Assembly: GCF_029541745.1 (NCBI RefSeq)
Contig: NZ_CP089746.1
Span: forward strand, 5,403,559 to 5,467,558
Length of the DNA: 64,000 bases
Direction of reading: 5' to 3'
Origin: Streptomyces sp. LX-29
GTDB taxonomy: Bacteria > Actinomycetota > Actinomycetes > Streptomycetales > Streptomycetaceae
Shown here: positions 1 through 2,543 of the stretch, in pieces
Numbering within the stretch: position 1 is the first letter of the stretch
How the letters are laid out: each line of letters starts with the position of its first letter
The notes under the pieces: generated by a model
What the model saw: the letters and a program-made list of their open reading frames with translations, nothing else
Told to the model about the DNA's origin: nothing
Database searches by the model: none
Made by a program: the position numbers and the translations under genes

Positions 1-454
1 CGCGGGTGACGATCCCCACGGGGTTGGTGAAGTCCACGATCCACGCGTCCGGGGTGCGGCGGCGCACCCGCTCGGCGATGTCGAGCACCACCGGGACGGT
101 GCGCAGCGCCTTGGCCAGGCCGCCGGCGCCGGTGGTCTCCTGGCCCACGCAGCCGCACTCCAGCGGCCAGGTCTCGTCCTGGTCGCGCGCCGCCTGCCCG
201 CCGACGCGCAGTTGGAGCAGGACCGCGTCGGCACCGTCCACGCCCGCGTCCAGGTCGCCGGTCCAGCCGATCCGCCCCGGGTGCCCCTGCCGGGCGAACA
301 TCCGCCGAGCGAGGGCGCCGATGAGCTCCAGCCGCTCGGCGGCCGGGTCGATGAGGACGAGCTCCTCCAGGGGCAGGACGTCGCGTAGCCGCGCGAATCC
401 GTCGACCAGTTCGGGGGTGTAGGTGGAGGCTCCTCCCACCACTGCGAGCTTCAA
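1..454 (-). CDS. csnH: GH4 family glycosidase (6-phospho-beta-glucosidase type), N-terminal part
   Basis: Partial gene; the 3' end lies beyond the left edge and 151 residues are visible. The protein opens MKLAVVGGASTYTPELV, the Rossmann NAD-binding start of glycoside hydrolase family 4, and later shows LQLRVGGQAARDQDE and DFTNPVGIVT, both typical of GH4 6-phospho-beta-glucosidases. These enzymes use NAD and a metal to cleave (phospho)glycosides in the cytoplasm. The start is TTG at 454 with AGGAG about seven bases upstream; it overlaps the stop of the upstream permease remnant by four bases, the usual operon coupling. With the ROK repressor at 951-2162 this fits the csnR...csnH chitosan-oligosaccharide locus of Streptomyces. 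The csn name is inferred from context; the GH4 call is firm. Confidence 0.8.
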   Translation of the reverse strand, partial: MKLAVVGGASTYTPELVDGFARLRDVLPLEELVLIDPAAERLELIGALARRMFARQGHPGRIGWTGDLDAGVDGADAVLLQLRVGGQAARDQDETWPLECGCVGQETTGAGGLAKALRTVPVVLDIAERVRRRTPDAWIVDFTNPVGIVTR

Positions 455-527
455 CCCTTGACTCCTGTCCGTGTCAGGCCTTCGACGAAGGCTTTCTGAG
501 CGAAGAAGAAGACGGCGATGACGGGGC
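451..527 (-). pseudogene. C-terminal remnant of a sugar ABC transporter permease (csnG-like)
   Basis: About 25 codons read GPVIAVFFFAQKAFVEGL then TRTGVKG and a stop at 451. This is the signature tail of MalG-type carbohydrate ABC permeases (AQKAFVEGLT.TGVKG). The stop overlaps the TTG start of the GH4 gene as in an intact operon. Upstream of about 527 the frame loses all resemblance to a membrane protein and runs into GC-rich repeats, so the rest of the permease is absent. No binding-protein gene or second permease lies between here and the ROK gene, where csn loci normally carry three transporter genes. This is either a real deletion or an assembly collapse. Confidence 0.75.
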
Positions 528-950
528 CGACCGGGCACGGGCCACAGGGCTCTGACCGGGCGGCGGCTCGGGGCGCGTTCGGGGGGCCCGGGCCGCGCCG
601 CCGGGCGGGGCCGGGGCGGGGGGGCGAGCCGGGACGGACGGCTTACGCGGGGCGGGCGGTCGTGCGGATGGCTTGCGCGGGGCGAACGGGGCTTGGGGAC
701 GGCTTACGCGGGGCGGACGGTCGTGCGGGCCGGTGCCTCCATCGCACGGCCGGGGGTGGTGGCTCAGCGGGGCCGATGTCGCCGGGGCGGGGCAGAGGCG
801 GGGCGGCAGCGGGCCGGGGCGTGTGTCGCTCGGAGGGGTCGGAAGGCGGGCCGGAAGGCGGTCGGTGGGCGGGTCGGAAGGCGGTCGGTGGGCGGGTCGG
901 AAGGCGGGCGGTGGGTGGTCGGGCGGTCGGTGGGCGAGGGCCGGGCGCGC
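528..950. repeat. GC-rich degenerate repeats replacing expected transporter genes
   Basis: No credible gene in 420 bases. A unit of about 31 bases beginning GACGGCTTACGCGGGGCG occurs at 637-667 and again at 698-728 with one mismatch. A second family, GTCGGAAGGCGG followed by TCGGTGGGCGG, recurs about three times between 838 and 930 with a period near 27-28 bases. Several frames stay open through this stretch only because it is almost all G and C. Confidence 0.7.
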
Positions 951-2162
951 TCAGGTCGTGTCGAAGACGGAGTGCCGGGCGGCTCGCAGAGCGGTGCGCA
1001 GTGCGCCCTTGAGGATCGGGGAGCCCTCCACGGCGCTCAGCCGCAGTTCGGGCCGGGGCAGAGCGAGGTCGGTGAGCTCGGCTTCGACCAGCGACCGCAG
1101 CCGCTCGCCCCCCGCCTGCGGCACCGCGCCGGAGAGCACCACCAACTCCGGGTCCACCACGGCGACGACGGAGGCCAGCCCGGTGGCCAGCCGGCGGGCG
1201 AGCTCGGCGAGCACCGCGTCGCCGCGGCCCGGGGTGCGCAGCGCCTCGGCGAGCGCCGCGGGCGCCGCGTCGGCCGTGAACCCGTGCGCGCGGGCGAGCG
1301 TGAGCACGGCGGGGGAGGAGACGAGCATCTGGAACCCGCCACCCCCGTCCGCCCCGGCGGTGGCGTCCGAGCCGCCGCGCGCCAGCGGGGCGCCGGGCAG
1401 CGGCATGTACCCGATCTCGCCGGCCCCGCCGGTCGCGCCGCGCAGCGGGTTCCCGCCGAGCACGATGGCGGCGCCGACGCCGTCGTCCGCCCAGACGAGC
1501 ACGAAGTCGTCGAAGTCCTGGGCGGTGCCGTGGTGCTGCTCGGCGACGGCGGCGAGGTTGACGTCGTTCTCGATCACGACGGGGGTGCCGAGCGTTTCGG
1601 CGAGTTCCTCGCGCAGCGTGCGGGACTGCCAGCCGGGCAGGTGGGGTGCGTAGCGCAGGGCACCGGTGAGCGGGTCCAGCGCACCCGGCGTGCCGATCAC
1701 AGTGTGGTGCAGGTCCTTCCGCGTCAGCCCGGCGGCGCTGAGCGCGCCGTCCACCGCCTCCGCCACCAGCCGAACCGTCCGCTCCGGAGTGCCGTCGGCG
1801 AGGGCGGGCGCGCGGATCCGGTGCTCGCCGACGACCTCGCCGGTGATGTCCGCGACGGCGGCGGTGATGCCCCGCTCGGGGTCCACGGCGAGCGCGGCGA
1901 TCCGGGCGGCGGACGGCTCGATCTCGTAGAGCCGGGCGTTGGGCCCCGGCCGTCCGGTCGCGGTCCCGGTCGCCCGCACCAGCCCGGCGGCCTCCAGCCG
2001 GGCCAGCAGCTGGGACGCGGTCGGCTTGGACAGCCCGGTCAGTTCGCCGAGCCGGGCGCGGGTCAGCGGGCCGTGGGCGACCAACAGCTCCAGCGCGGCC
2101 CGGTCGTTCATCGCGCGCAGCACGCGCGGCGTGCCCGGGGTGCCCCTCGCCGTACCGGCCAT
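951..2162 (-). CDS. csnR: ROK family transcriptional repressor (CsnR-like)
   Basis: 403 residues from ATG at 2162. A winged helix-turn-helix lies at about residues 15-75 (ALELLVAHGPLTRARLGEL, then GLSKPTASQLLARLE), followed by an ASKHA-fold ROK domain (AVDPERGITAAVADITGEV; VGAAIVLGGNPLRG). The Cys-rich zinc motif and the ExGH motif of ROK sugar kinases are missing (GEIGYM replaces ExGH), so it should be a regulator rather than a kinase. A perfect palindrome 84 bases upstream is a likely operator. CsnR in S. coelicolor and S. lividans represses chitosan-oligosaccharide uptake and chitosanase; here its neighbouring transporter is gone, so it may control only csnH and unlinked targets. Family firm, csnR assignment moderate. 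Confidence 0.85.
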   Translation of the reverse strand: MAGTARGTPGTPRVLRAMNDRAALELLVAHGPLTRARLGELTGLSKPTASQLLARLEAAGLVRATGTATGRPGPNARLYEIEPSAARIAALAVDPERGITAAVADITGEVVGEHRIRAPALADGTPERTVRLVAEAVDGALSAAGLTRKDLHHTVIGTPGALDPLTGALRYAPHLPGWQSRTLREELAETLGTPVVIENDVNLAAVAEQHHGTAQDFDDFVLVWADDGVGAAIVLGGNPLRGATGGAGEIGYMPLPGAPLARGGSDATAGADGGGGFQMLVSSPAVLTLARAHGFTADAAPAALAEALRTPGRGDAVLAELARRLATGLASVVAVVDPELVVLSGAVPQAGGERLRSLVEAELTDLALPRPELRLSAVEGSPILKGALRTALRAARHSVFDTT

Positions 2163-2543
2163 ACGGTGCCCCTCGTCTCCTGCCGTACGGAAACCCAGGC
2201 GTGCCCGCACGGGTTCCCCACGGCTCCCATGGAAAGGCGCTCTGTCAGGAAACCTTCCTGTCGAGTGACCAGGAAGGTAGAGGCGGCCGGAGGTCGGGTC
2301 AAGGGTGCGGGGCGTACCAGCGGACCCCGGGCCGCGCGGAGGGGACGGGCACCGGGGCGGGAAAGAGCGTGGCGCGGACCGCGGGCCGAAAGCAGCGACC
2401 GCGGAAGGGGAAAGCAACGACTGCGGGCCGAAAGCGGCGACCGCGGAGGGGAAAAGCGGCGACCGCGGAGGGGGAAGAGCAGCGACCGCGCGGGCGGCGC
2501 CCCGAGGAGCGGCCCGCGCGGTCGCGTCGTTCGCGCTCGCGCG
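2163..2543. other. Intergenic region csnR/mscS with short tandem repeats
   Basis: Apart from the operator at 2246-2260, this spacer holds a degenerate repeat at about 2385-2500: GCGACCGCGGA then AGGGGAAAAGC recurs four times with a period of roughly 28-35 bases. No gene or convincing hairpin is seen. Confidence 0.6.
2246..2260. promoter_or_regulatory. Palindromic operator upstream of the ROK gene
   Basis: CAGGAAACCTTCCTG has perfect six-base arms around a three-base spacer. It lies 84-98 bases before the csnR start. A further half-site, AGGAAGG, follows at 2271-2277. ROK repressors of actinobacteria bind AGGAAA...TTTCCT-type palindromes, so this is probably an autoregulatory CsnR site. Confidence 0.6.

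Follow-up and report, generated by a model that had tools for sequence, protein, structure and literature searches.

The window analyzed here, a 64,000-bp stretch (G000:C1:5403559-5467558) of genome G000, which consists of one contig of 8,228,343 bp, carries on the minus strand, in this order, a ROK repressor gene, a spacer, a 3' scar of the permease gene csnG, and a GH4 glycosidase gene. The csnR-type ROK repressor gene (951..2162, minus strand; ATG at 2162, stop codon at 953-951) is intact and encodes 403 aa. Its ORF, in a longer version, matches the Pfam ROK domain (E 3.7e-29) and the MarR_2 HTH (6.6e-9); the gene is 50-80% identical to csnR of intact loci, and the protein contains the ENDVN and GEIGY motifs, with 2 of 148 near-invariant columns altered. 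A CsnR-box-like palindrome, AGGAAACCTTCCT (2247..2259, no strand assigned), lies 84 bp before the csnR ATG and differs by one mismatch from AGGAAANTTTCCT, the CsnR box consensus given in PMC6097792. The spacer upstream of csnR also contains a second GC-rich tandem array, with 22/42 bp units, at 2377-2490. The GH4 gene, csnH, begins with a TTG codon (454-452), and its 5' part occupies positions 1..454 on the minus strand (Pfam Glyco_hydro_4, E 1.2e-36); the whole gene (420 aa, G000:C1:5402753-5404012) extends to the left beyond the window and is followed on its 3' side, outside the window, by csnK, which encodes a 324 aa kinase of the BadF family (BcrAD_BadFG). A tyrosinase gene (L039:8130-8957; Pfam E 8.1e-47) is located 3' of csnK in G000; none was noticed after csnK in the intact locus L041.

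Across G000, there are four CsnR-box-like sites at no more than one mismatch, one of which is that of the csnR promoter. Another, TGGAAAGTTTCCT, at L290:2295-2307 (G000:C1:4325794), is inside the start of an ORF for an RpiR/SIS regulator that adjoins a second SIS-domain gene, MurQ-like in appearance; as a guess, the site may be of the kind that this regulator itself recognizes.

In Streptomyces coelicolor/lividans, the csnREFGHK operon corresponds to SCO2657-2662 (PMC6097792, PMC5635096; the SCO2662 end from PMC6520443). CsnEFG is reported to be involved in the transport of chitosan-derived oligosaccharides (PMC6097792) and also to take up GlcN (PMC6520443), and (GlcN)2 is described as the strongest competitor of CsnR binding (PMC6097792). 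The locus in the window shares with this operon the order csnR...csnH-csnK, the boxed ROK repressor, the GH4 enzyme, the saccharide kinase, and the overlap of the csnG 3' end, here a remnant, with csnH. Unlike that operon, it has no csnE or csnF and keeps only 24 codons of csnG, and the genome contains neither a GH46 nor a GH75 chitosanase. The domains, motifs, and gene order thus bear out the first-pass annotation insofar as it described an intact ROK repressor and an intact GH4 gene arranged as in csnR...csnH loci.

The junction between csnR and csnH

The distance from csnR to csnH in the window is 496 bp (455-950), or 499 bp with the csnR stop codon counted, and the G+C content of the gap is 79%. 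Positions 527..950 (no strand assigned) form a GC-rich spacer in which units of 23 and 30 bp are repeated in tandem; the scar (451..526, minus strand) consists of the final 24 codons and the stop codon of the MalG-type permease gene csnG and bears a GGAG motif that resembles a ribosome-binding site and belongs to csnH. The TTG of csnH (454-452) and the TGA of csnG (453-451) overlap in the four bases TTGA, likewise in the intact locus L041. The 76 nucleotides that end in the scar stop codon match the csnG 3' end of many intact loci, including that of S. palmae (L083), at up to 93% identity, and at the protein level the scar is 81% identical to intact csnG across 26 codons. The scar peptide, PVIAVFFFAQKAFVEGLTRTGVKG, aligns with the C-terminal end of CsnG in 120 intact rows, one of them a duplicate, and contains two odd residues, at positions occupied in the same rows by V in 119 of 120 and by L in all 120; such changes at near-invariant positions are to be expected of a remnant that has been freed. 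The permease tail and its four-base overlap with the GH4 start had been recognized initially and are upheld here, with the estimate of about 25 remaining codons revised to 24 that are clearly homologous.

When six-frame pieces of the gap were compared by blastp with the proteins of csnE, csnF, and csnG, with up to four targets for each piece, the csnG C-terminus alone matched clearly (best E 3.6e-10). The other blastp matches had E values of 0.02 or worse, and no csnEFG remnants beyond the csnG tail were found in the spacer by six-frame blastp or blastn. The 26-residue scar peptide had no match in Pfam, nor was there a consensus match to a promoter or terminator on either strand of the spacer, the sigma-70 consensus fitting Streptomyces poorly.

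The same deletion in a second genome

G058, a genome labelled as the same species as G000 and assembled in 70 contigs, bears the same csnG scar, both odd residues included, and has no csnEFG at the locus; the aligned parts of the two loci are 96-98% identical. The deletion thus predates the split of the two strains. The csnR-csnH gap of G058 is 137 bp long, versus 499 bp in the window (csnR stop codon counted), and holds only about 40 bp of repeat, most of the spacer being missing. The long repeat array is therefore strain-variable padding and not a substitute for the lost genes, so that, of the original proposal that 420 bases of GC repeats had replaced the importer genes, the absence of the importer stands and the replacement does not.

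That the importer genes exist in the cell and were dropped during assembly might be suspected because the spacer, being GC-rich and repetitive, is of a kind that is hard to assemble. However, the same scar occurs in the shorter gap of G058, which argues against such a collapse, as do the two odd residues common to both scars and the lack of a csnE ortholog elsewhere in either genome. With the same junction in a second assembly, the collapse that had been named as a possible refutation of the loss was ruled out, and we regard it as exceedingly improbable.

A search with CsnE from G055 recovered the csn locus in all five importer-bearing genomes searched, G055 among them (54-100% identity, at least 503 bits). 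By contrast, in six of six importer-less genomes (G000, G058, G060, G053, G035, and G009), no csnE ortholog was found, the matches reaching at most 33% identity and 80 bits; for the remaining importer-less loci, the search covered the fetched neighborhood only. The genome-wide search called for in the first-pass annotation therefore agrees with the loss, and relocation of the importer was ruled out at the ortholog level in the six genomes. An unrelated or diverged importer encoded elsewhere could nevertheless have taken over, in which case chitosan-oligomer uptake would persist and the operon would merely have been split. G000 has 16 SBP_bac_1 and 61 BPD_transp_1 matches, each a conceivable carrier of GlcN oligomers, and two of its three CsnR-box-like sites outside the csnR promoter have no gene assignment. 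Given the gulf between the CsnE matches in the six genomes and those at intact loci, we consider such a replacement quite improbable.

Recurrent loss of csnEFG in Streptomyces

The genus set comprised 61 genomes, 55 of which have csnR and csnH on one contig; left out were G017, G037, and G050 (no csnH at E 1e-60), G032 (csnR and csnH on separate contigs), and G051 and G008 (no csnR ortholog). The importer genes lie between csnR and csnH in 48 of the 55, with a gap of about 3.2-3.7 kb, which indicates that the locus in the window once had the importer; the reservation that relatives might never have had csnEFG thus falls away. The other seven (G000, G058, G060, G053, G035, G009, and G043) lack csnEFG and have gaps of 33-499 bp. 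Among the named loci, the top 80 of 588 when ranked by similarity of csnH and hence leaning to csnH like that of the window, 70 keep csnEFG, 8 do not, and 2 (L065 and L069) were unscorable, with csnG cut by a contig edge. Altogether, after removal of three duplicates (L073 = L045, L085 = L043, L094 = L051), 14 of the 132 csn loci scored have no csnEFG. At one importer-bearing locus, L132 (S. albicerus), csnG and csnH are separated by roughly 1.4 kb of additional sequence.

On a csnH-csnK protein tree (134 rows, built with a quick method), the presence and absence of the importer require at least eight changes, all forced by starred branches, with long branches and unsure placing for G043 and G035. 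The sister of the locus in the window is the importer-bearing locus of S. palmae (L083). The count of changes alone cannot separate loss from gain, but a csnG remnant can. Such remnants were detected by tblastn in the window's species, in Streptomyces sp. CB02058 (G053), and in S. spirodelae (L126, about 60 codons), and by eye in translations of G009 and Streptomyces sp. ADI96-02 (L137, the weakest case); the changes in these five lineages are accordingly losses. No csnG coding was visible in the gaps of S. klenkii, S. hiroshimensis, G043, and G035. The scar, the sister locus, and the lack of a csnE ortholog genome-wide thus corroborate the loss of the importer with retention of the regulator and the glycosidase, as first suggested for the strain; the loss is not confined to the strain, being shared by the species and recurrent on the tree.

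Five importer-less relatives, CB02058 (L051/L094), S. klenkii (L043/L085), S. hiroshimensis (L079), S. spirodelae, and ADI96-02, resemble the window in that csnR-csnH-csnK is kept and csnEFG is excised between the csnR stop codon and the csnG 3' end. They differ in their breakpoints, in the number of csnG codons kept (0 to about 60), and in gap length (61-332 bp), and they represent separate events by the tree, except S. klenkii with S. hiroshimensis. The GGAG motif precedes csnH in all 10 importer-less loci that retain csnR; the excisions thus spare the csnH ribosome-binding site, which, in our reading, is why a csnG tail remains. Simple tandem repeats were seen by eye, as in the window, at the independent deletion junctions in the gaps of L126 and L079.

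Conservation of the retained genes

The retained genes could be decaying remnants of an operon from which csnEFG was lost by chance. Consistent with such neutral decay, csnR is also missing at four importer-less loci: it was not found within 9-10 kb upstream in L084, L087, and L124, and genome G051 has no csnR ortholog. Three genomes with a csnR-less csn locus, namely, G051, AV19 (G062), and S. huiliensis (G064), contain no CsnR box at no more than one mismatch and are the only 3 of 79 genomes without any. However, csnH is clearly constrained, with a dN/dS of 0.135 between G000 and G058. For csnR, the value of 0.39 may reflect relaxed constraint, yet those of csnK (0.34) and of a neighboring mscS-like gene (0.31, with the G058 row starting off its start codon) are alike. 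Furthermore, in 9 of the 10 importer-less loci with csnR, only 0-4 of the 148 near-invariant CsnR columns are altered (mean 1.2 and maximum 6 in importer-keeping loci), G035 with 16 being the exception, and csnK is present in all 14 importer-less loci. Neutral decay therefore appears unlikely.

Association with CsnR-boxed chitosanases

In a search that covered the families GH46 and GH75 but not GH2, GH5, or GH8, no chitosanase was found in G000, G058, G060, or G043. Within the two families covered, G000 and G058 thus have no chitosanase gene with a CsnR box, of which a CsnR regulon comprises at least one. We scanned 821 bp upstream regions of 68 GH46 and 44 GH75 genes for CsnR boxes, leaving out 5 of 73 GH46 rows and 1 of 45 GH75 rows (contig ends, fragments, and G017). 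The best mismatch counts are bimodal, with 47 genes at 0-2 and 65 at 3-6; a reversed box gave no gene below three mismatches and a scrambled palindrome gave one at two.

At no more than one mismatch, a boxed GH46 or GH75 gene is present in 0 of 7 importer-less versus 30 of 48 importer-bearing genomes (p 0.0024), and, at no more than two, in 0 of 7 versus 31 of 48 (p 0.0017); with exact boxes only, the difference (0 of 7 versus 15 of 48) is not significant (p 0.17). In a second set of 18 genomes, where GH46 alone was searched, at no more than one mismatch, and the 12 importer-bearing genomes were tree neighbors picked before their chitosanase content was known, a boxed GH46 occurs in 0 of 6 importer-less versus 7 of 12 importer-bearing genomes. 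For the 74 genomes combined, with G051 back in as importer-less and G008, G017, G032, G037, and G050 left out, the counts for GH46 at no more than one mismatch are 0 of 14 versus 37 of 60 (Fisher 2.7e-5); the omitted G032 has a boxed GH46.

When eight losses were placed randomly on the tree by branch length, no boxed genome fell among the lost in 0.2% of draws (p 0.002), or in 0.3% when the number of lost rows was left unconstrained. Across eight independent pairs, the box was found only in the importer-bearing row in a mean of 5.4, the reverse in 0, and both rows were equal in 2.6 (sign test, median p 0.031, range 0.016-0.25 depending on pairing). In one comparison, G053 (L209) keeps a GH46 gene syntenic with that of G052 (L201) but lacks the promoter segment in which the G052 box lies. 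However, no boxed GH46 is present in 23 of the 60 importer-bearing genomes either, including that of the sister S. palmae, where GH46 is absent altogether; the absence of a box thus does not force importer loss.

Discussion

Taken as a whole, the following history appears likely to us. An ancestral csnREFGHK operon lost csnE, csnF, and csnG before the two strains diverged, through a breakpoint that left the csnR stop codon and the csnG 3' end together with the ribosome-binding-like motif of csnH; the remaining csnR, csnH, and csnK form a short operon behind the CsnR box. Such excision recurred in the genus in lineages where a secreted GH46 is absent or lacks the CsnR box, and, with no CsnR-controlled production of GlcN oligomers outside the cell, the importer would no longer be under selection. 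The importer thus seems to become expendable after the CsnR-controlled chitosanase is gone, and the 23 importer-bearing genomes without a boxed GH46 may represent the stage before importer loss, if the events followed in this order. Genome size, ecology, or a general loss of chitin use could also drive both losses. In the importer-less strains, chitosan oligomers would presumably not be taken up; CsnR most likely continues to repress the operon to which it belongs, and CsnH-CsnK may deal with low levels of GlcN sugars that reach the cell interior, or form there, in some other way.

Such dismantling, with csnR-csnH-csnK perhaps taking on a new role, seems to fit better than the rewired chitosan response proposed in the first-pass annotation, which is poorly supported because G000 contains neither a GH46 nor a GH75 chitosanase. 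A bolder reading, which we advance tentatively and deem possible but doubtful, is that in several lineages CsnR-CsnH-CsnK has been released from its tie to chitosan uptake and works as a module that regulates itself and serves a task inside the cell, such as salvaging metabolites or wall fragments that contain GlcN, the boxed secreted chitosanase and the importer being lost jointly as an outer-loop unit.

The csn cluster is described as conserved in many actinomycetes (PMC6097792), highly conserved (PMC5635096), and conserved in Actinobacteria (PMC6520443). No titles or abstract openings among the matches listed, with subscription journals mostly uncovered, named a loss of csnEFG, and a prior report is possible. 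What is new here is that, in the genomes checked, importer loss goes with a GH46 chitosanase that is missing or lacks the CsnR box. The csn importer has been lost repeatedly even though the cluster is described as conserved, and, among the 74 genomes tested, the loss is confined to those in which no GH46 with a CsnR box was found. The presence of csnR and csnH in a genome does not, then, predict chitosan use, which raises the question of the role of csnR-csnH-csnK without the importer. The pattern of importer loss ties the secreted enzyme, its operator, and the importer into one evolutionary unit.
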